From Aldrovandia affinis (taxonomy: Eukaryota; Chordata; Actinopteri; Notacanthiformes; Halosauridae), in NCBI GenBank assembly GCA_029706075.1, contig JAINUG010000226.1, positions 1,404,501 through 1,468,500 of the forward strand: a DNA stretch of 64,000 nucleotides, read 5' to 3'. Below are positions 50,948 through 63,610 of this stretch, piece after piece (position 1 is the first letter of the stretch; every line of letters begins with the position of its first letter). Made by a program: the position numbers and the translations under genes. The notes under the pieces were generated by a model that worked only from the letters and a program-made list of their open reading frames with translations, did no database searches and was not told the DNA's origin.

Positions 50948-53900
50948 ACGTGTGTGTCCTGCAGGACCGCAGCTCCAGTCCTTATGCACTGCGCTCAGCT
51001 GTTACCACCTGGAAGGAGGGCCTTCTGAACAGGAAGAGGCCGTTCGTGGGCAGGTGCTGTCACTCATGCACGCCTCAGAGTCAGGTAATGCCCACACCTA
51101 CTTCCACCACTGCATCAAGGGGGGGTTGGGGGCATCCAATATAATATCAATGTAAAAATTCTGCAAACATTTTTTTCTCATGTCAGCTTGAAAAAAAAAA
51201 TCATTTTGAGAAAAATACAATTTTTATGGGAAATAGCTTTTCGCTTTATGCTCATGTAGATGTTCAGCCTCTCATCTCAAACTCTTCCTGAGAAGGTTAA
51301 TTGATTTCATTAGTACTGATGCACATTTACTTCAGTGCAGTGCAGGCCTACTACTTCAGAAGTGTTTTGTATCACCACATTCTCCTTCATGGTGCAGGTG
51401 CTGGTTTATCAAGACAAACACTCTCCTCCATAGTGAACACACACTCTCCTCCATAGTGAACACACACACTCTCCTCCATAGTGAACACACACACTCTCCT
51501 CCATAGTGAACAGTGAACACACACACTCTCCTCCATAGTGAACACACACACTCTCTCCTCCATAGTGAACACACACACTCTCTCCTCCATAGTGAACACA
51601 CACACTCTCCTCCATAGTGAACACACACACTCTCCTCCATAGTGAACACACACTCTCCTCCATAGTGAACACACACACTCTCCTCCATAGTGAACACACA
51701 CACTCTCCTCCATAGTGAACACACACACTCTCCTCCATAGTGAACACACACACTGAACACACACACTCTCCTCCATAGTGAACACACACACTCTCCTCCA
51801 TAGTGAACACACACACTCTCCTCCATAGTGAACACACACACTCTCCTCCATAGTGAAACACACACTCTCCTCCTCTCTCCTCCATAGTGAACACACACAC
51901 TCTCCTCCATAGTGAACACACACACTCTCCTCCATAGTGAACACACACACTCTCCTCCATAGTGAACACACACACTCTCCTCCATAGTGAACACACACAC
52001 TCTCCTCCATAGTGAACACACACACACTCTCCTCCATAGTGAACACACACACTCTCCTCCATAGTGAACACACACACACTCTCCTCCTCTCTCCTCCATA
52101 GTGAACACACACACACTCTCCTCCATAGTGAACACACACACTCGCACTCTCCTCCATAGTGAACACACACACTCTCCTCCATAGTGAACACACACACTCT
52201 CCTCCATAGTGAACACACACACTCTCTCCTCCATAGTGAACACACACACTCTCCTCCATAGTGAACACACACACTCTCCTCCATAGTGAACACACACGCA
52301 CTCTCCTCCATAGTGAACACACACACTCTCTCCCCATAGTGAACACACACACTCTCCATATTAAATGTGCCCTTCTCACTGATTGTTTGCTTCCAGGAGA
52401 GGCTGTTCAACTCCAGTATCCCCTCCCTTGGTCTGCGCAATGTGATTTACATCAACGACACGCACACCAGGTAGGCAGGACCCCACTGAGGAGCTGTGTG
52501 TGCATGTCTGTGTGTGTGTGCGTACGTGCGTGCATTTCTGTCTGGATGTGTGTTTGTGTGCGTGCGCATTTCTGTTTTGATGCATGCGTGTGCATGTTGG
52601 TTTGCGTGAGCGAACGAGACTGGAGGAAACGCATACCTGTTTGTGTGAAGCTCTGGTGACCCAAAGCAGCTGAATAATTGAGCGTGTTTGTCAGGGGACA
52701 CCCACCCACCCACCTGTATCCTGTGACTGACCTCTGCAAGGGGTCAGGGGTGGCTAAGTCTGCCACAGCACAATGAAAAACCTGTTTTTAAAGCAAATCC
52801 TCTTGTTGTTGAGTTAAATATACACTGAGTGATAATGCACAATCATGCTGAAATTGTAGGTTTGTTAGAGCTTACAACTGACATATTCAGGTTTTCCCAC
52901 ATGTCATCCCCTCTCCTGTTATAATAATAATAAAAAGAATAACAATAAACTAGAGAGTTTAAGCTAAGAGGAAGGACTTGCACATGTACACTACATCCAG
53001 CCCAACATGGTTTCAATAAGGCAGAACTTATTTTGGAGCAGTATATTAAGTGCGCAGGTTCTATGTGGTGAGCTCCAGCTGTTGAGCTCAGACACCTTAC
53101 AAAAAGTAATAACCTACTAAATCCACAACTCATCCATTAGGTCAGATGAACCAGGACAGGGCATTGACAGGTCACAGAGTGTGTGTGTGTGTGCCTGTGC
53201 ATTTCTGTTTGGATATGTATGTTTGTTTATGTGTGTGCATTTCTGTGTGTGCGCTAAATGCTTAAATGTAATGCGTGTGTGTGCATTTCTGTTTGAACGT
53301 GTGTGTTTGTATACGCCTCTGTGCTGCAGGCATCGGGGATGGCTGGCCAGGCGACTGAGCTATGTGCTGTTTGTCCTGGAGCGCGACATCCACAAGGACA
53401 TGTTTGCCAGGAACGTAGTGGAGAACGTGCTCAACAACAGCAGGTAGACAAGAGCGTACTTCCCTATAACACTCTTACTGATCACACATTACACCAGTCC
53501 CCAGTAACACTGATCAACACAAGTACACCAGCCCCCAGTAACACTGATCACACAATTACACCAGTCCCCAATAACACTGATCACACAATTACACCAGTCC
53601 CCAATAACACTGATCACACAATTACACCAGTCCCCAATAACATTGATCACACAATTACACCAGTCCCCAGTAACACTGATCACACAATTACACCAGTCCC
53701 CAATCACACTGATCACACAATTACACCAGTCCCCAATAACATTGATCACACAATTACACCAGTCCCCAATAACACTGATCACACAATTACACCAGTCCCC
53801 AATCACACTGATCACACAATTACACCAGTCCCCAATAACATTGATCACACAATTACACCAGTCCCCAATAACACTGATCACACAATTACACCAGTCCCCA

Positions 53901-55204
53901 ATAACACTGATCACACAATTACACCAGTCCCCAATAACACTGATCACACAGTTACACCAGTCCCCAATAACACTGATCACACAATTACACCAGTCCCCAA
54001 TAACACTGATCACACAATTACACCAGTCCCCAATCACACTGATCACACAAGTACACCAGTCCCCAATGACACAGATCACACAAGTACACCAGTCCCCAAT
54101 AACACTGATCACACAATTACACCAGTCCCCAATAACACTAACACTGATCACACATTACCCATTGTAACCCATGAACACTGCACACAATAACGCTGGTCCC
54201 CATCAACACTGTTCACATTAACACCAGTCTGACACTGAGTAAGGCATTGGTGAAGCAAAATGTTTAAAAGCAAAGACGTTTAAACTCTTCAAACTTTTAA
54301 ACTCTTCAAACTTTAAACTTTGAGATAAAACCAGGGGTAATATTTTGGCCATACGCTGACGTGTCCCACCACACACTTTCCCAGGCGTTAAGTTTTCTTG
54401 TAATCATTGAGAAATTTAGAGCATATACAACTCCAAAAGTGAATGTGATTAAATGCTTAGACCAGCTGTTGCACATACCCACATAAAGAGGATTCGTTCA
54501 TTTTCAATAAATGTGAGACAATGAGTAAAAGACGTATGGTGCCTGGCTTGGGGCTGGCGGGGGGTGAGTTGTCGACCCCTTGCACCGTTGGTTGAAGTGA
54601 AACCGAAGTGAATTATTACATTACATTACAGCCATTCAGCAGACTTACACAGTTTCATATTTCTTTACATACGTCCATACAGCTGGATATTTACTGAAGC
54701 AATCCAGGTTAAGTACCTTGCTCAAGGGTACAACGGCAGTGCCCCACCTGGGAATCGAGCCTGTAACCTTTACGTTACAAGCCCAGTTCCCTAACCATTA
54801 CGCTAACACCGCTGCCGAATTACCTGGGATAGGAGTCCCTGGGTCCAACCCTGCCCCTTGTGTGTGTGCGCTGTGTGCAGGGTGGAGACCGCCACTGTAG
54901 AGGTAGCTGCAGAGGAAAGCCCCGTCGCCATGGAGTCGGGGGTGGAGCAAAAGGCTGTCAGCAAAGTGCGACGAAAAGCCAGAGGGATCCTGCAGGAAAT
55001 GGTGGCCAACATATCCCCAGCGTTCATTAGGTACGTCGTGTGGCGACACATGGAACTGCAGCTGCGTCGGGGGGGCCTGATGCCTGTTTCTGGAGCCGTG
55101 CTGTGGAACGTAGAATATTAGGCTTCAATCTGCTACTGGTTTTATCTTTTTCAAAGCTTTTTTTTTTTTTAAATGGCCAATCAAGTGTAAAACAAAGAAG
55201 TTTA

Positions 55205-55257
<53 letters not shown>

Positions 55258-58200
55258 CAGCTTCAGTGTGTCTTGGTATGGATTCTAGAAGTGTTTGGAA
55301 CTCTATTGGATGGATGCAACAGCATTCTTCCACTAGAAATTCCATCATTTGTTGTTTTGTTGATGGTGGTTGGAAACACTGTCTCATGCTCCAGAAACTC
55401 CCGTAACTGTTCAATTTGGCTGAGATCTGGTGACAGACGGCCATGGCAAGTGGTTTACGTCCTTTTCGTGCTCGTCAAAGCATTCAGTGACCACCACTGT
55501 GCCCTGTGGATGGGGGCATTGTCATCCTGAAGAGACCACTCCCTTCAGGATAGAAATGCTTCACCATAGGATGAAGGTGATCACTCAGAATGGCTTTGTA
55601 TTTACTGCCATTTGCCCTCTAAGGGGTTGAGTGAACCTAAACAATGGCAGGAAAATGCACCCCACACCATAGCAGAGCCGGCAGAACCCTTAATTTAGTC
55701 AAGCGTTTCCTTTTTTTGGCAGTTATCCGTGTATAACCAAGCAAGGTGAGCCTTTTCAAAGGGTGGCGTGTTGGAATTATTTTTCCCATTGAAATGAAAC
55801 AGAGATAGTTTATTTTATACATGAAGAGGGGACAGTATTTGTAGCCATGTAAAAAGGAAAGTTTAAACAAAAAAAAGACCCCCCGCTTTCCCAGTTTACC
55901 TTTTGACACTATGTTTGATGTGCGTCTCTCTCCCTTCTTCTCTCAGGTTGACGGGTTGGGCGCTGCTGAAACTGTTTAACGGTTTCTTCTGTAGCATCCA
56001 GATCCACAAAGGCCAGCTGGAGATGGTGAAGAAGGCCGCCACAGAGGTGAGTGTCCCACTCGCTCTGACGCCACACATCAGCAGGGCCTCTTTCCTGCGC
56101 ACACACATCAGCAGGGCCTCTTTCCTGCGCACACACAGGGATCCCAGCGGCCCTGACAACTAGCAAAGCGCTTCATTTTGAAGGAGGAAAATTCAAGATT
56201 GTGAAAGTACTTGAAAGGTCAAAAGTGCTTTTTATTGATTTATTATTATATCTTTTTTTGGTGCTTGTAACAGGGTGAAGTGCTGATGTTTTCTAAAATA
56301 CTGGTAGTGGGCCAAAGAGTAGAAACACTAACATGATGTGACGGTGGTATCCTGCTCTGTAGAGTTGTCAACGGACTGTTGTTGATGAAACTGCCTGCTC
56401 GCGTCCTAGATTCAAATTTGCAGTAAATTCATTTAGAGTTGCTCGTTTAGCCTTGCAACTCAAACTAATGCGTGCCCCAACTATCACCCCTCTTTTGAAG
56501 TCACTGAGGTCTCATCTCCTAGCCGTGCTAACCAGAATTATGGGCAACCAGGCCGGCCCAGCATTTTTGTACATGACCCCTCGTAACAGAGTGAAGTGTT
56601 GATGGTTTGTAAGATAGGTTATGGACTGACAGGGTGAAGTGTTGATGGTTTGTAAGATAGGTTATGGGCTCGTGACAGGGTGATGTGTTGATGGTTTGTA
56701 AGATAGGTTGGAGATGCTCAGGTTGAATAGTGCTGGTGTTCCGGGCCTCTCCAGTTCCCTTGCAGCTGTGTTTGTTGTGTGTAACTGGGAGGGCCAAGCT
56801 GGTTGGAGGCCAGTGAACTGCAGTGAACATCATTTCCCTTGAACCTCTGAACCGGAGCCCCTCTGTGATTGACCGCGACCCCCGCTGTTCTCCGCAGGGG
56901 GTCTGCTCAGGGGAGCGGATACAGAGAGGGTAACTCGTGACAACAGCTACCATCAGGGTGTCATCAGCTGACTGTTGAAGTAGCCAAAACAGACCTCTGA
57001 CTCACCACCTTTTTCTGACACCGTGGCTTTTAAAATGTACTTGTATTTATTCACTTTTAAACCTTAAAATCTGAAACTTTTTTATTTAAAAAAAAAAAAA
57101 TTCCTAATTTGGAAGCCAATTATACCCTCTATTTATTTTGATTAACCTTCTCCCACAAACTCACCGTCCGTCTCTACGGGGCAAGCTACTCTCCGAGACC
57201 GGCGACGATCCGCCTCCTTCGAGACGGAACTCACCGACTGAAGACACCCTTATGTGCTTCACAGCGAGTTCATTTTTCTCCAAGAATGCCCCAATTGTAT
57301 TTGTAAGCCCGTCTCATCGCTGCTAGGCAAGCACATGCTCTTCTCCAAATAATACTTTGGGTTGGAGCTGGGCAGAAGTGGGGTTTAATTTTTTTCAATC
57401 TGTTTGTTTCTGGGGCTTCGTCATGTCATAAACCAGAGACCTATGCTATGAGTCAACAGAAGTGTATTTGTTCGATCTTTTCCTTGAAATAGCAGCTTGC
57501 CGGGCCCATTCCGCGGGCTCCATTACATCTGTGGAAACATTGCTTTGAATAGTCTGATCTGAACCTGACACTAATCCTGCATCAGCCTCATGATTTCCCC
57601 TCTGGTAGCTTCGTGTGCCTCATTAAGCTGTTTACAGCGGCAGAGGGGTGCTAATCTCGCAAACTGGGGAATTACTCGGAGGGCAGGATGAATCCGGAAT
57701 TATCCAACGAAAGGGGACAAATAAAACGGTGTGTTTTGTGCCTCCTCGTGGACAGGTGAAGACAATCCTGCTCCTGTAGAAAGGGATTGATCAGGCTGAG
57801 CGCACATTCAGGTGAAAATGGAGGAATTCTGTCATTCTGCCATTATTGAAGCTGATTGTCATCTGATTTGCCGTCTTGCTCTGAATATTCATGAGGAGGC
57901 GTGACCTCGACACGGTTCAGTCTCGGTGGGTCGGTACAGCACGGCCCCCCAGTGCTCTGATGCGTTGGGGTCTGACTCTGTGGCGGTACAGCTCAGTGCA
58001 GGCTCTTGCGGACCGGTGCCATCTCTAGCGGTATGGGGCGGGTGCAGTCTCTGGTCGTACTGTACAGTGCAGTGCAGGATGTGTGAGGAATGTCTCTTCT
58101 GTTTCAGCACAATGCCCCTCTGGTCTTCCTGCCCGTGCACAAGTCCCACATAGACTACCTGCTCATCACCTTCATCCTCTTCTGCCACAACATCAAGGCA

Positions 58201-60150
58201 CCGCACATCGCCGCCGGCAACAACCTCAACATTCCCATCTTCAGGTCAGAGCGCCCGCACCCGCGAGACAACGGCACGGAATCGGTTAATAAACGCATCG
58301 GTCGACAAGTTCAGTTGAATCCGCCGTCACCGATTGATGTCTTGTGTCTCAGTAAAGACGCTAAAGAGCCAAACTTTAAATACAATACAATACAACACAA
58401 TAATTTAGCAGACGCTTTTATCCGAAGCAAGTTGCAGAAAGCAAGGATGAAAAGGTAATTTACTTGGTGTGTGGCTGGTGCTTCAACCTTTTTTGTACTT
58501 TTGTACAGAATTTTAAATTGTACTTGATGGTTGCTTTTTAATATGTTACTGTTGTCAAAAGATACTTGTGTGGTATTGCACTCACGGACCTACCAAAAGT
58601 GCGCCACTGGGAAGGCATTAACTGCAAACTTTTGAATGTTTCAATAGTTTTTAAGCTCCGGGTCACGTTTTTAAGCCCTTTTTGGTTAATTCCCTCATGG
58701 CACATTATTGCGTATTGCCATTATTTGCGTGTGGGTGCCTTTCTCCTTCCCCGCTCTGCCAGGCACAGAGCTCACAAGTGAATTCTGTTGGGCTTGCGAT
58801 GGTTTCCACCTTGTCCTCGTCAGATTTATGAGACCGCATTGTTGGATACTTCAGCAGGGATAACGTCGGCCAGAGAATCCCCGAGTTGCGTAACCACATT
58901 GTTTTAGGCGTGTGCTCACCTGTCCGGCACAGTTTCTTGTTACATCACACTTGTTACATCACGCCACAGCGCCTTATTTAATTGCTTGGCGGAGCCCCTT
59001 TGTCTGGCATTTCTTGCATGGCTCACATGGTTAGCATATTTACAGCTGGAAATGTAAAGGTGTATCAAGCGATCTGACGTCACTGCAGGAGAGGTAGGGT
59101 TAGTGGAACACGTAATATACGCCTTTTAGCAGACGCTTTTATCCAAAGCGACGTACAGTAGTGAATGCATACATTTTATTTTATTTTCCAGTATATGTGG
59201 TCCCAATGGGAATTGAGCCTACAACCTAAGCGTTGTCAGCACCAGCTACACAGAACCACATGACAATGTAATGCCAGTTGACCCTTCATAACTGGTAGCG
59301 AGAAATAACAAGTGATTTTCTTATAGAAAGGCAATTAATCAGTAAATGTATTTGATTCTAGATTTCCTATACTGGTCTTTAAGCATTCTGTTTTGCGGAC
59401 TCATACGATCTGCTATAGCTAGACCTGCTCAGCCGTGGCACGTGTGTCCATCAGCCACTGCTCGGTCGCGGCCGTTGAAACCGCAGAAGCGTGTCAAGGT
59501 CGGCTCGTTACCTGCGATGGCTATCCTAGCAAACGCTAACCAGCCATGTTCACCTGCCAACGAGGAAAGATGCCATCTCGGCATCGGTTTTTCTGTACAT
59601 TTTGTGTTGTGTTTTTTGGGGGTTTTTAGGTTCCATAGCTAGCTAGTGTTATTCTTTTCTTTTTCTTCTTCTAACATAACCTAGGTGGTGGACAGGGACA
59701 ACTAGCGCCAGTGTGGCTAATGGTTGTATTTCAGTTTGTATACGTTCCGGCGCGTGTCTTTGCGATGTTGCCCCGCCACTGAGCGATGGCGTCCAGTCGC
59801 TTAGTATACCTTCGGTGAGGTGACCCAAGGTTACAGGCTCACTTTGCGGCTGTCTAACTGCCGAGAGTTCTTTTGGCCTTTCAGCACGTTGATACGGAAA
59901 CTCGGGGGGTTCTTCATACGCCGCAAGCTGGACCACCCTGCTGATGGAAAGAAGGATGTTCTGTACAGATCTCTGCTGCATGCTGTAAGTACTTCATACA
60001 CACACAAACATGTTTTATATTGATCTCTGCTGCATGCTGTAAGTACTTCATACACACACAAACATGTTTTATATTGATCTCTGCTGCATGCTGTAAGTAC
60101 TTCATACACACAGGCTGTATATTTAATTCATAAACACATCTCTCTCTCTG

Positions 60151-60191
<41 letters not shown>

Positions 60192-60248
60192 ATGTCTCTC
60201 TCTATGTCTCTCTCTCTCTCTCTATGTCTCTCTCTATGTCTCTCTCTC

Positions 60249-60331
<83 letters not shown>

Positions 60332-60368
60332 GTCTCTCTATGTCTCTCTCTCTCTCTCTATGTCTCTC

Positions 60369-60413
<45 letters not shown>

Positions 60414-63400
60414 GTCTCTCTATGTCTCTCTCTCTCAGTACACAGACGAGCTGCTCCGGCAGCAGCAGTTCCTGGAGATCTACCTGGAGGGGACGCGGTC
60501 TCGCAGCGGGAAGCCGTCCCCGGCGCGGGCCGGCATGCTGTCCATCGTTGTGGACTCCCTGTGCTCCAGCAACATCCCCGACGTCCTCATCGTGCCCGTC
60601 GGCATCTCGTACGACCGCATCATCGAGGGGAACTACAACAGCGAGCAGCTGGTACGGAGCACGTGCCGTTAGTCACACTGCCCCTGTTTGTCTCCCTGGT
60701 CTTGTTCTCTCTTCCACACACACACACACACATACATACACACACACATACACACACACACACACACACACATACACACATACACACACACACACAAAAA
60801 AGTTCATTTCAATTCAAAAAAGGTTTAACAAGCCAATTACCGCCACAGTATGAGGGATTGCGTTTATATAGCGCCTTTCATGATCTCAAAGCACTTTGTA
60901 GTAAAGTGGAGGAGCTTGCTTCAACCGCCACCGATATGTAGCACCCACTCTGGATGATGCACGGCAGCCATTTTGGGCCAGAACGCTCATCACGAGCCAG
61001 CTGAGGTAGAGGGGGTGAGAATGACTAAGTCAATTAAAACGTGTGAATTTTGCCAGGACACCAAGAAACCCTCTAACCTTTGCGACAATTGCCGTGGGAT
61101 CTTTAATAACGCATGGTGAGTCAGGACCTCGGGCTCATCCAAAAGATGCCGTCTCCTGCGGTAGGGTTACTGCACAGCGCCACTGGTTAGTTTTCCCACT
61201 GACCGAGCTCAACCCTGCTTAGCCTCAGCCATTTGGGCAGGGGAAGGCTATAGCGTGGTGTGACTGAAGATATAGAGCAGGCTACCTTACTGCCCTTCCA
61301 TAAGGATAGTTTTCTCCTCCCTCCCGCAGTGAGACAGTGATAATGAAACGTCAATGATTATGCCACCGAAGGCTTGTCTGGACACGATATTGGGGTCAAT
61401 AGGACAACGGTAAGCCAAACAACCACAACCTACATTCAGGAACGAAGCCTATTAATTATTAATTCAGATTGTTTTTATGGCGACCGCTGATTAGTGGAAG
61501 GACGCCGGCAGGGATTGGCAGCCAAACGTTTAGCACTTCCCTCAAGAAAGATCTGCTCCCAATCTTGGTAGCTGTCAGCACCAGCCTTTAAGCATGCAGA
61601 TGCACACCTGCTGTACATACATAAATACATGTTTACGTACATACACACGTACATACATACTGTACACACGTTTGCGCACACACACACATACAGGCAACTG
61701 CCAAAATAAAGGACACATTTGAGTAAATTAAGGGTTCTGGTGGGTCTGTTATGGTGTGGGGTGCATTTTCCTGGTATGGTTTAGGTCCACTCAACTCCTT
61801 AGACAACAAGGTAAGTACAAAGCCATTCTGTGTGATCACCTTCATCCTATGGTGAAGCATTTCTATCCTGATGGGAGTGGTCTCTTACAGGAAGACAATG
61901 CCCCATACACAGGGCACGGGTGGTCATTGAATGGTTTGATGAGCATGAAAATGATGTAAAGCATATGCCATGACTGTCTCAGTCACCAGATCTCAGACAG
62001 TGTTTTCCCACCACCATCAACAAAACACCAAATCATGAAATTTCTTGTGGAAGAATGCTGTTATATCCATCCAATAGAGTTCCAGACCCTTGTAGAATCT
62101 ATGCCAAGGAGCATTGAAGCTTTTCTGGTAGCTCATGGTGGCCCAACACCCTATTAAGACACTTTATGTTGGTGTTTTGGCAGTCATCTGTATATAGAAA
62201 TGGTGATGGTTACAGGCTGTAGCTGCTGAGCAGTTTAAACTGGTTCTTTTTTAGCAGGGTGTGCAAGAGCACAGATTGATTCCCTCGCCCACCCAGGGAG
62301 GGTCAAGGCCAAAATGAAGGAGAGCGTGTGCAGCATTTCAACCTCCTCCCCCCCCCCCCAGGGCAAGCCCAAAAAGAACGAGAGCCTGTGGGGCGTGGCC
62401 TGCGGAGTGTTCCGGATGCTGCGCAAGAACTACGGGTGCGTGCGGGTTGACTTCACCCAGCCCTTCTCCCTCAAGGTGAGAGGAGCAGCCACGTCACAGC
62501 ACCCAGTCCTGTCCCACTCACCTTCTACTCTCCCTTTCACACGGCCACTCCACTGGGCCAGTCACACACACCTCCATCTTTATCTGCCTTTACCCAGCTC
62601 ACCTTTCACAGCTTGGGTGCATTGATTAATTGGTTAATTGGTTGACTGACTGACTGACTGACTGACTGACTGACTGACTGACTGATTGATTGATTGATTG
62701 CAGGAGTACCTGGACACACAGCGGAGTCGGCAGCTACCAGCCCCTCTCTCCCTGGAGCAGATCCTGGTCCCCACCATCATTGCCGCACAGTACGTCCTCT
62801 TGCTCGAATATATACACAGTGGGTATAAGAGTATGTACACAGTGGGTATAAGAGTATGTACACAGTGGGTATAAGAATATGTACACAGTGGGTATAAGAG
62901 TATGTACACAGTGGGTATAAGAATATATACACAGTGGGTATGAGAATATATACACAGTGGGTATAAGAAGTATTCATCCCCTTTGGCATTTTTCACGTTT
63001 TATTTTCTTACTTCACGAAATCAAAATGGATTTAAGTGGGATTTCTTGCCACTGATCAACACCAAATACTCTACAGTGTCAAAAAAAAAAAAAAAAACTT
63101 AAGATTTTTCTTAATTAATTACAAATAAAAAACATACAATAATTGATTCCATAAGTGGCCAAAAAGGTGGAAACACTATTTGTGAATGAAGCACACAAAG
63201 TATATTTAAAGCAGGGGCTTAACATCCCAGCATGCTCAAAAATGAATATGAATGAATAAAAAAATTCTGGGCAGGCCTGGTTTCGTCTTAAAATACAGAG
63301 CAGAATACCATAGTCGTATCATATTGGTGTTTCCACCTTTGTGGCCTCTACCTGTACGTCGCTGACATAATTAATTTGTCCCAGGTTTGGAAGCCCTGTC

Positions 63401-63610
63401 AGAAGAGGCAGTCTAGTTTTTCATTGTTTGATTGACCATGAGACTGGTTTGACGCTGGCTACTTTGATATGAGGTTGACTATAATGTCGTTGTCCAGGCC
63501 AGACCAGGCCCTCTTCAACGGTGAGGAAGAGGAGCACAGCTCCAGAGATCTGTCAGACGAGCCCTGGAGAAGGCAGGTCATCAACAACCTGGCCAAGCAC
63601 GTGCTCTTCA
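48959..63610 (+). CDS. gpam: Glycerol-3-phosphate acyltransferase 1, mitochondrial (5' part, 12 coding exons)
   Basis: GPAM adds an acyl-CoA to sn-glycerol-3-phosphate on the outer mitochondrial membrane, the first step of glycerolipid synthesis. Twelve in-phase exons give 473 codons plus one base; the human protein is 828 aa, so the C-terminal half lies beyond the window. The 33-residue first exon aligns with the mammalian start without a gap of more than one residue. Motif I is HKSHID (H230, D235, the same numbers as mammals). The second conserved region is GNNLNIPIF and GGFFIRR. Motif III is [15 protein letters not shown] (E315, G316) and motif IV is IVPVGISYD. The N-terminal block [10 protein letters not shown]...CTPQ is also diagnostic. 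The two membrane segments seen in mammalian GPAM fall after the last exon here. I see no frameshift, so the gene looks functional. Introns carry many microsatellites and two minisatellites. Confidence 0.95.
49146..49292 (+). repeat. tRNA-derived SINE (family B)
   Basis: Head TGTGTGGCTCAGTAGGTAGA, B-box GGTTCGATTACC, tail GTCGCTTTGGATAAAAGCGT. A short (TA)n run follows. Confidence 0.88.
49638..49809. mobile_element. 172-bp hAT MITE with exact 8-bp TSD
   Basis: The right end reverse-complements to CAGGGTTACTCAAATC and the left end is CCACATTACTCAAATC. GGCTAGCT is duplicated exactly at 49630-49637 and 49810-49817. Its body matches the 22051 element in reverse orientation. Confidence 0.9.
50608..50950. 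repeat. (GT)n microsatellite block, about 340 bases
   Basis: Nearly pure TG with scattered CG and CA steps, ending against the gpam exon 2 acceptor. ORFs over it are artefacts. Confidence 0.97.
50965..51084 (+). CDS. gpam: gpam coding exon 2
   Basis: It encodes [20 protein letters not shown] and SCTPQSQ, closely matching mammals. The acceptor TGTGTGTCCTGCAG directly follows a (GT)n block of about 340 bases. Confidence 0.95.
51418..52363 (+). repeat. 25-bp minisatellite, about 37 copies
   Basis: The modal unit GAACACACACACTCTCCTCC plus ATAGT repeats with indels of 2-5 bases in gpam intron 2. Because 25 is not a multiple of three and the minus strand lacks stops, three overlapping minus-strand ORFs arise. 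Confidence 0.97.
52397..52470 (+). CDS. gpam: gpam coding exon 3
   Basis: It reads [20 protein letters not shown] and DTHTR. The acceptor TTTGCTTCCAG lies right after a 25-bp minisatellite. Donor GTAGGC, phase 2. Confidence 0.94.
53330..53443 (+). CDS. gpam: gpam coding exon 4
   Basis: It encodes [20 protein letters not shown] and [10 protein letters not shown]. Donor GTAGAC, then a 33-bp minisatellite begins. Phase 2 at exit. Confidence 0.96.
53465..54170 (+). repeat. 33-bp minisatellite, about 21 copies
   Basis: The unit TAACACTGATCACACAATTA plus CACCAGTCCCCAA repeats in gpam intron 4. The period is divisible by three, so both strands stay open; the ORFs are artefacts. Confidence 0.97.
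54615..54816 (-). repeat. tRNA-derived SINE (family C), reverse
   Basis: ACCTTGCTCAAGGGTACAAC, GGGAATCGAGCCTGTAACCT and CTAACCATTACGCTAACACC match the 19192 copy. It ends about 65 bases upstream of gpam exon 5. Confidence 0.87.
54881..55030 (+). CDS. gpam: gpam coding exon 5
   Basis: It encodes [15 protein letters not shown] and later [20 protein letters not shown]. Acceptor GTGTGTGCAG-like, donor GTACGT. Confidence 0.93.
   Translation, partial: GGDRHCRGSCRGKPRRHGVGGGAKGCQQSATKSQRDPAGNGGQHIPSVH
55207..55255. repeat. (TA)n run abutting a Tc1 relic
   Basis: About 24 TA units ending exactly where Tc1 sequence starts. Confidence 0.95.
55250..55734 (-). mobile_element. Tc1/mariner relic (second family, copy 2)
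   Basis: It shares GAACAGCTTCAGTG, ATTCCATCATTTG and the TTTTTGGCAGTTATCCGTG end with the copy at 24590, in the same orientation. The left terminal repeat is lost into the (TA)n run. Confidence 0.82.
55947..56046 (+). CDS. gpam: gpam coding exon 6
   Basis: It reads [20 protein letters not shown] and [13 protein letters not shown]. Donor GTGAGT, phase 0. Confidence 0.95.
57088..57240 (-). repeat. SINE family A fragment, reverse
   Basis: AATTCCTAATTTGGAAGCCA, TATACCCTCTATTTATTTTG and CACAAACTCACCGTCCGTCT match the reverse copy near 31008. Confidence 0.7.
58108..58244 (+). CDS. gpam: gpam coding exon 7 (acyltransferase motif I)
   Basis: It encodes [20 protein letters not shown] with the catalytic H-X4-D pair at residues 230 and 235, and GNNLNIPIF. 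Donor GTCAGA, phase 2. Confidence 0.97.
58385..58455 (-). repeat. L2-type tail fragment
   Basis: TTTAGCAGACGCTTTTATCC followed by GAAGCAAGTT matches the reversed SINE/LINE tail. No head is present. Confidence 0.65.
59112..59260 (-). repeat. tRNA-derived SINE (family B), reverse
   Basis: TTTAGCAGACGCTTTTATCC, GGTCCCAATGGGAATTGAGC and the reversed A-box region, GCGTTGTCAGCACCAGCTAC, mark the whole element. Confidence 0.85.
59885..59984 (+). CDS. gpam: gpam coding exon 8 (substrate-binding motif)
   Basis: It encodes [20 protein letters not shown] and [10 protein letters not shown]. The donor GTAAGT at 59985 is the first of three identical donors because the exon end is triplicated. Confidence 0.95.
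59968..60113 (+). repeat. gpam: 54-bp tandem triplication of a gpam exon end and donor
   Basis: GATCTCTGCTGCATGCTGTA starts at 59968, 60022 and 60076, a 54-bp period. Each copy includes the last 17 bases of exon 8 and its GTAAGT donor; the third copy is partial. Confidence 0.96.
60139..60438. repeat. gpam: (CT)n microsatellite forming the exon 9 acceptor tract
   Basis: About 300 bases of TCTCTC with scattered TGTC and TATG units, ending directly in the CAG of the gpam exon 9 acceptor. Confidence 0.96.
60439..60651 (+). CDS. gpam: gpam coding exon 9 (motifs III and IV)
   Basis: It encodes [20 protein letters not shown], with the acyltransferase E-G pair, and [20 protein letters not shown]. 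The acceptor is the end of a 300-base CT-rich repeat. 71 codons, phase 0. Confidence 0.97.
60716..60800. repeat. (CA)n microsatellite
   Basis: CA repeat with TA interruptions just after gpam exon 9. Confidence 0.95.
60869..61355. repeat. Dispersed fish repeat, class uncertain
   Basis: TATATAGCGCCTTTCATGAT, CACTCTGGATGATGCACGGC and GTGGGATCTTTAATAACGCA are blocks of a repeat I recognise from fish genomes. I do not know its class. Confidence 0.55.
61693..62192 (+). mobile_element. Tc1/mariner relic (second family, copy 3)
   Basis: The left end CAGGCAACTGCCAAAATAAA and right end TGTTTTGGCAGTCATCTGTA are inverted repeats. Inside, on the + strand, SVMVWGAF and GLLQEDNAP frames match transposase. 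It is deleted and frame-shifted. Confidence 0.85.
62362..62475 (+). CDS. gpam: gpam coding exon 10
   Basis: It encodes [20 protein letters not shown] and [18 protein letters not shown]. The acceptor follows a run of C bases. Donor GTGAGA. Confidence 0.97.
62641..62700. repeat. gpam: (GACT/GATT)n repeat next to the exon 11 acceptor
   Basis: Ten or more ACTG units then ATTG units, running up to the CAG at 62701-62703. Confidence 0.95.
62704..62789 (+). CDS. gpam: gpam coding exon 11
   Basis: It encodes [20 protein letters not shown] and LVPTIIAA. The acceptor ATTGATTGCAG ends a (GACT/GATT)n repeat and has no pyrimidine tract. Donor GTACGT, phase 2. Confidence 0.9.
62812..62970 (+). repeat. 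23-bp tandem repeat
   Basis: CACAGTGGGTATAAGAGTAT plus GTA repeats from 62815 with a 23-base period in gpam intron 11. Its last copy runs into GTGGGTATAAGAAGTATTCA, a transposon-end-like sequence. Confidence 0.9.
63151..63358. mobile_element. Tc1/mariner-type MITE, about 200 bp
   Basis: AAGTGGCCAAAAAGGTGGAA at the left and the reverse complement of TGGTGTTTCCACCTTTGTGG at the right form inverted ends. No ORF inside. The target duplication was not resolved. Confidence 0.65.
63498..63610 (+). CDS. gpam: gpam coding exon 12 (last in window)
   Basis: It reads [20 protein letters not shown] and [14 protein letters not shown]. Donor GTAAGA, phase 1. No further gpam exon is seen before the window ends at 64000. 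Confidence 0.92.

Follow-up and report, generated by a model that had tools for sequence, protein, structure and literature searches.

What becomes of a gene when a complete splice donor stands three times, unchanged, within one intron? The question is raised by gpam in the halosaur Aldrovandia affinis, on a stretch of 64,000 nucleotides from contig JAINUG010000226.1 (hereafter the window). The product of gpam, GPAT1, is the first enzyme in building fat molecules. A single intron with three donors that agree over 37 bases offers, as a natural experiment, a view of the spliceosome's choice among equal 5′ splice sites, which is otherwise studied largely in built constructs. Should copy number vary among individuals, glycerolipid synthesis would also have a simple dial acting in cis.

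A donor-bearing array at a gpam exon border

The original prediction described a tandem triplication with a 54-bp period, its copies starting at 59968, 60022, and 60076, and both TRF and a core search agree with it. TRF reports 59968-60112 as a tandem repeat of period 54 with 2.7 copies, 100% matches, and 0 indels. The 37-nt core at each of the three starts shows 0 mismatches between copies, and 100 shuffles of the window produced no match to it at three or fewer mismatches. Every core comprises 17 exonic bases, the donor GTAAGT, and 14 more intronic bases. The exon end at 59984 and the donors at 59985, 60039, and 60093 lie where they had been placed, and an identity first claimed for at least six intron bases in fact runs from -17 to +20, taking in 17 bases of exon and 20 of intron. 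The intronic identity of copies 1 and 2 extends to 74 bases; upstream, copies 2 and 3 have 71 bases in common. With head-to-tail units of 54 bp the array falls within the 10-100 bp range of minisatellites, and a complete 5′ splice site lies inside the tandem duplication, giving three GTAAGT donors. The triplicated array is real in the A. affinis assembly, the one assembly considered. Its parts are as follows.

59968 to 60004, plus strand: core of repeat copy 1, 17 nt of exon and 20 nt of intron (TRF, core search)
59985 to 59990, plus strand: donor 1, GTAAGT, alone among the three in yielding full-length GPAT1 (translation)
60005 to 60021, plus strand: spacer 1, a possible decayed exon copy (comparison with the exon)
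60021 to 60023, plus strand: in-frame TGA for donor 2 and donor 3 transcripts, recurring at 60075-60077 (translation)
60022 to 60058, plus strand: core of repeat copy 2 (0 mismatches against copy 1)
60039 to 60044, plus strand: donor 2, GTAAGT (sequence)
60059 to 60075, plus strand: spacer 2, the same as spacer 1 (comparison)
60076 to 60112, plus strand: core of repeat copy 3 (0 mismatches against copy 1)
60093 to 60098, plus strand: donor 3, GTAAGT (sequence)

The surrounding exons encode GPAT1

Eight AG/GT-bounded exons within 54881-63610 join to an open frame of 337 codons with no stop. Its ATG-led part, a protein of 322 residues, aligns to residues 98-414 of PDB chain 8e4y_A, named glycerol-3-phosphate acyltransferase 1, mitochondrial (E 1.7e-149, 500 bits); the alignment shows one inserted residue in an earlier exon and, further along, a gap of one residue, and neither falls at the 59984 junction. 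The joined protein matches the Pfam families Acyltransferase PF01553 (8e-25) and GPAT_C PF19277 (4.3e-17), and the 33-residue piece from exon 59885-59984, searched against Pfam, matched no family. Three more exon pieces downstream, trimmed by eye, align to GPAT1 residues 417-570 (E 1.7e-58). Together the 8e4y_A and Pfam matches bear out the earlier assignment of the gene as gpam, with its junctions and frame, and the exons examined are intact. Two of them flank the intron that holds the array.

59885 to 59984, plus strand: gpam exon of 100 nt, counted as exon 8 in the original prediction, containing GGFFIRR (acceptor TTTCAG, donor GTAAGT, gapless alignment to 8e4y_A)
60439 to 60651, plus strand: next gpam exon, 213 nt, containing GTRSRSGK and VPVGISYDR (PF01553, E 1.4e-8)

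The gene is apparently single-copy. A 254-base query over exon and array and a 105-residue query each matched this locus only, and no second gpam copy or alternative-allele contig was found in the 1.22-Gb assembly at E <= 0.001. Among viral contigs, 96 pattern matches included no relative. A run of exactly 5,000 N, possibly a gap, lies downstream of the gpam exon pieces (L009:4001-9000).

What each donor would make

Donor 1 splices ...YRSLLHA onto YTDELL... in the GPAT1 register, leaving no gap against 8e4y_A. Donors 2 and 3 would each append the same 12 residues and then meet the TGA at 60021-60023; the second TGA, at 60075-60077, is never reached in the donor 3 product. Use of an extra donor would thus bring a premature stop 12 codons beyond the exon end and upstream of GTRSRSGK, as originally proposed, and this holds for both extra donors. 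The predicted product retains GGFFIRR and is without VPVGISYDR and GTRSRSGK, the latter of which we take to be acyltransferase motif III by motif numbering.

A new intron or an extra exon within the array was considered and rejected for want of an acceptor: between 59985 and 60140, AG dinucleotides occur only inside the three GTAAGT donors and once at 60112, with none preceded by a pyrimidine tract, and the duplication therefore brings no usable acceptor of the kind that intron gain involves. Related events have been described elsewhere. In potato RdRp a tandem duplication across an intron-exon border is reported to copy splice signals (PMC4974935), and near intron pairs in Drosophila are presented as intron gain or shift by tandem duplication of exonic sequence (PMC2891723). 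Whereas introns were created or moved in those cases, in gpam the 5′ border of the intron alone has been copied, with no new acceptor. Minisatellites in human segmental duplications, with units averaging 30 bp in four copies at exon-intron boundaries, are described as altering exon/intron structure (PMC2812944); the gpam units differ in that each carries a complete GTAAGT, and no second gpam copy was found. Searches of the open literature with limited wording, judged by title and the start of the abstract, showed no published tandem array of at least three splice donors among the papers listed; a similarly limited search returned no papers on GPAM splicing or decay in fish or liver.

Competition between equal donors

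How would the spliceosome treat such an array? The account we favor, at somewhat better than an even chance, is an accidental triplication of minisatellite type across the gpam exon-intron border, with no evolved role, whose extra donors divert part of the pre-mRNA to a premature stop and decay and so lower gpam mRNA. Three donors of equal sequence would compete passively for U1, with donor 1 alone yielding GPAT1, while donors 2 and 3 would extend the exon into the in-frame TGA. Because at least four exons lie downstream of that TGA, the general rule leads one to expect that donor 2 and donor 3 transcripts would be degraded by nonsense-mediated decay, and gpam mRNA would be reduced to an extent set by copy number. 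We infer the use of the extra donors, the decay, the lower output, and the lack of a selected function from the sequence; the array is probably accidental, no sign of an evolved function having been found, and its identical cores, at least, are probably of recent origin.

A close parallel is human SLC22A1/OCT1, a liver-expressed gene whose variant rs35854239 is described as duplicating 8 bp of the exon 7-intron 7 donor (PMC8137991). In OCT1 minigenes, by the same report, both donors work, correct splicing amounts to 49-62%, and about half of the transcripts are mis-spliced; mis-spliced RNA in liver reaches at most 2.1% by pyrosequencing, the product being subject to decay, and homozygotes have 35% less protein at the median (PMC8137991). 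The effect on drug handling is given as not significant, and native liver as preferring correct splicing somewhat (PMC8137991). In OCT1 as in gpam, a tandem duplication copies a donor, and the original donor gives functional protein where the added one gives a premature stop. The OCT1 unit, however, is 8 bp long with two donors and a frameshift, whereas the gpam unit is 54 bp long with three donors, in frame, and a stop inside each unit. Splicing and product loss were measured for OCT1; for gpam they are predicted from the DNA. By this analogy the gpam array should send a share of transcripts to decay while leaving little trace in ordinary RNA data, and since OCT1 mis-splicing is hidden by decay in liver, scarce truncated RNA would not prove normal splicing. 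The low level of truncated or decayed transcripts that had been suggested is a fair idea on the same analogy, but may be too mild.

Read length matters here as well. RNA reads anchored in the exon by fewer than 18 nt do not distinguish donor 1 from donors 2 and 3, and those anchored by fewer than 72 nt do not distinguish donor 2 from donor 3; short-read mapping may by default credit such ambiguous junction reads to donor 1. Reverse transcription can, moreover, jump between direct repeats.

Equal donors need not be equally used. Donor 1 might be chosen almost exclusively, since the true exon body and its enhancers adjoin it alone, leaving donors 2 and 3 as silent passengers. This is the main rival account, possible though on the whole unlikely. 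The full exon stands directly upstream of donor 1 alone, AT-rich spacers rather than true exon body precede donors 2 and 3, and more pairing is predicted for donor 3; together, the spacers and the pairing of donor 3 could favor donor 1. The mean predicted unpaired probability is 0.16 for donor 3, as against 0.32-0.35 for the first two donors (four folding windows of naked RNA, weak evidence). Canonical splicing also appears to be preferred in OCT1 livers beyond the minigene estimate (PMC8137991). Set against exclusive use of donor 1 are the identity of the donors from -17 to +20, the measurable use of the duplicated donor in OCT1 minigenes (PMC8137991), and the behavior reported for mouse Hps1, which favors the downstream, stop-giving donor when Ptbp1 is reduced (PMC4222953). 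The U1 pairing energy is -6.8 kcal/mol for each of the three donors; seven other sites that were scored, one of them misplaced, span -1.7 to -12.7 kcal/mol. A hairpin concealing donors 2 and 3 was rejected, as donor 3 alone differs and naked-RNA folding is weak evidence.

Donor strength is not the only determinant of choice. Studies of DOK7 (PMC5585400) and of Hps1 (PMC4222953) both describe bound proteins as acting alongside it. In exon 18 of mouse Hps1, alternative 5′ splice sites are reported to be coupled to decay, with Ptbp1 activating the upstream donor (PMC4222953), and the gpam array has a conspicuous pyrimidine tract at its side.

60139 to 60436, plus strand: TC-rich microsatellite making up the polypyrimidine tract in the array's intron, up to the next gpam acceptor (TRF period 2, 149 copies, 85% matches)

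The array and this adjoining 300-nt CU tract might together act as a regulated poison-donor switch: PTB or another CU-binding protein would control how often donor 1 is used and so tune the level of GPAT1. The output logic would match that of Hps1 exon 18 (PMC4222953), since in both genes the upstream donor is functional and the downstream donor leads to a premature stop, and 87 overlapping CTCTCT words occur in 60113-60438. The arrangement, however, differs: in Hps1 Ptbp1 binds between two donors of which the upstream is weaker (PMC4222953), whereas the gpam donors have one and the same sequence and all three precede the CU tract. Judged by reading, the sequence between the gpam donors is repeat plus spacer, CAAACATGTTTTATATT, rather than pyrimidine-rich sites, and neither 17-nt spacer is a pyrimidine tract. 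Similar TC-rich sequence is moreover common in the genome; when a query included part of the tract, 72 of 73 genome matches fell on the TC-rich part only (a lower bound, with 40 of 613 candidates scored). We consider a regulated switch very unlikely.

The length of the repeat unit

The AT-rich spacers bear on the extent of the repeat. In the 54-bp register, spacer 60005-60021 lines up with an exonic stretch immediately upstream of the first core.

59951 to 59967, plus strand: exon stretch resembling the spacers, possibly the first 17 nt of a full copy 1 (10 of 17 identical, shuffle p 0.0035)

Composition shuffles attain this 10/17 match between spacer and exon in 0.35% of trials. Within the window, the exon stretch is matched equally well by 476 of 127,968 17-mers (83 of 15,498 among AT-rich ones), and the spacer by 1,032 of 127,968. 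At the codon level, KHVLY and a stop in the spacer correspond to KDVLYR in the exon; shuffles attain four of five residues in 0.0135% of trials, as do six of 127,972 15-mers in the window, the array itself counted. Of 83 registers in the exon, the 54-bp one fits the spacer best, and in a genome search a local alignment extends 12 bases into the exon stretch (66 columns, 94%). These tests are mutually dependent, the idea having arisen from inspection of the sequence, and are suggestive only of a unit that may comprise 34 nt of exon and 20 nt of intron, present in three full copies over 59951-60112. Three copies of such a unit would fill 59951-60112 exactly, and the extra copies would once have been open in frame, with TGA now replacing an AGA codon; the original prediction may then have missed the full length of the unit. 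A CA run passes unbroken through 60004/60005, which ordinary old intron would be expected to show; copy 3 would then have been clipped by deletion. We hold the two origins of the spacer, decayed exon and old intron, to be about equally probable. A spacer that simply continues as intron after copy 3 was rejected: 60113-60129 matches it at 5 of 17 positions (shuffle p 0.72), so that copy 3 ends sharply at 60112. A source for the spacer elsewhere in the genome was not found with a 73-nt query, whose three matches all lie in the array, and 17 nt are too short to trace a source.

Mismatches fall at seven of 17 spacer sites and none of 37 core sites (Fisher 1.1e-4), a difference that makes uniform decay unlikely and calls for recent exchange or conversion of the core. 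One might then envisage an old, evolving array built of the 34 + 20 nt unit, originally an open in-frame insert of 18 codons. In the extra copies the exonic portion would have degenerated and acquired the TGA, and repeated exchange from copy to copy would have kept the donors from diverging. Decay of the extra donors could not then settle the competition; gain or loss of copies alone could, and gpam output would be a trait tunable by copy number through a minisatellite of splice donors. We regard this history as rather improbable.

Quite improbable, too, is an assembly error or a rare allele, with a true or usual copy number of one or two. Tandem repeats are a reported source of assembly errors (PMC6868369), the long TC-rich tract begins 26 bp from the array, and no second allele contig was found for comparison. 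The array nonetheless spans at most 162 bp, which one ordinary read could bridge, the window contains no N letters, and sharp ends with an exon-like spacer are not what an assembler would create.

Tandem repeats in and around gpam

An accidental origin for the array can be set against the repeat content of its surroundings. TRF arrays cover 8.5% of the window, or 6.0% for periods of at least 10; in a genome sample of 20 pieces of 10 kb, picked at round coordinates, they cover 5.4% of 197,285 bases, or 3.5% for periods of at least 10. Of the 16 gpam exon ends, some 0.6-1 would be expected by chance inside an array of period >=10, ignoring selection. Arrays of period 30-100 with 100% matches were absent from the 20 sampled pieces, and the window holds four such rows: 59968-60112, 56072-56137, and two within the large array 51414-52357. 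The position of the array is unremarkable; a perfect array of such size is less common. In Atlantic cod, a repeat-rich fish, 12% of coding-sequence repeats are reported as heterozygous in the sequenced individual (PMC5241972).

Other gpam introns carry repeats near their borders. A perfect 30-bp tandem duplication of 2.2 copies (56072-56137) begins 25 bases into the intron after the exon ending at 56046, and a 23-bp array of seven units (62809-62973) starts 19 bases inside the intron that follows the exon ending at 62789. Ahead of the exon at 62704, (TGAC)n followed by TGAT units occupies 62643-62703 and ends six bases before the exon; TRF counts 13.8 copies of the tetranucleotide in 62643-62697. 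The word CTGAC resembles the branch-point consensus, so that a microsatellite may make up the branch-point region before this exon. A minisatellite of 20 units of 33 bp (53477-54139), a period that leaves reading frames open, lies upstream of the gpam exons; the long open frames at 53297-54187 and 53514-54164 are probably spurious products of it.
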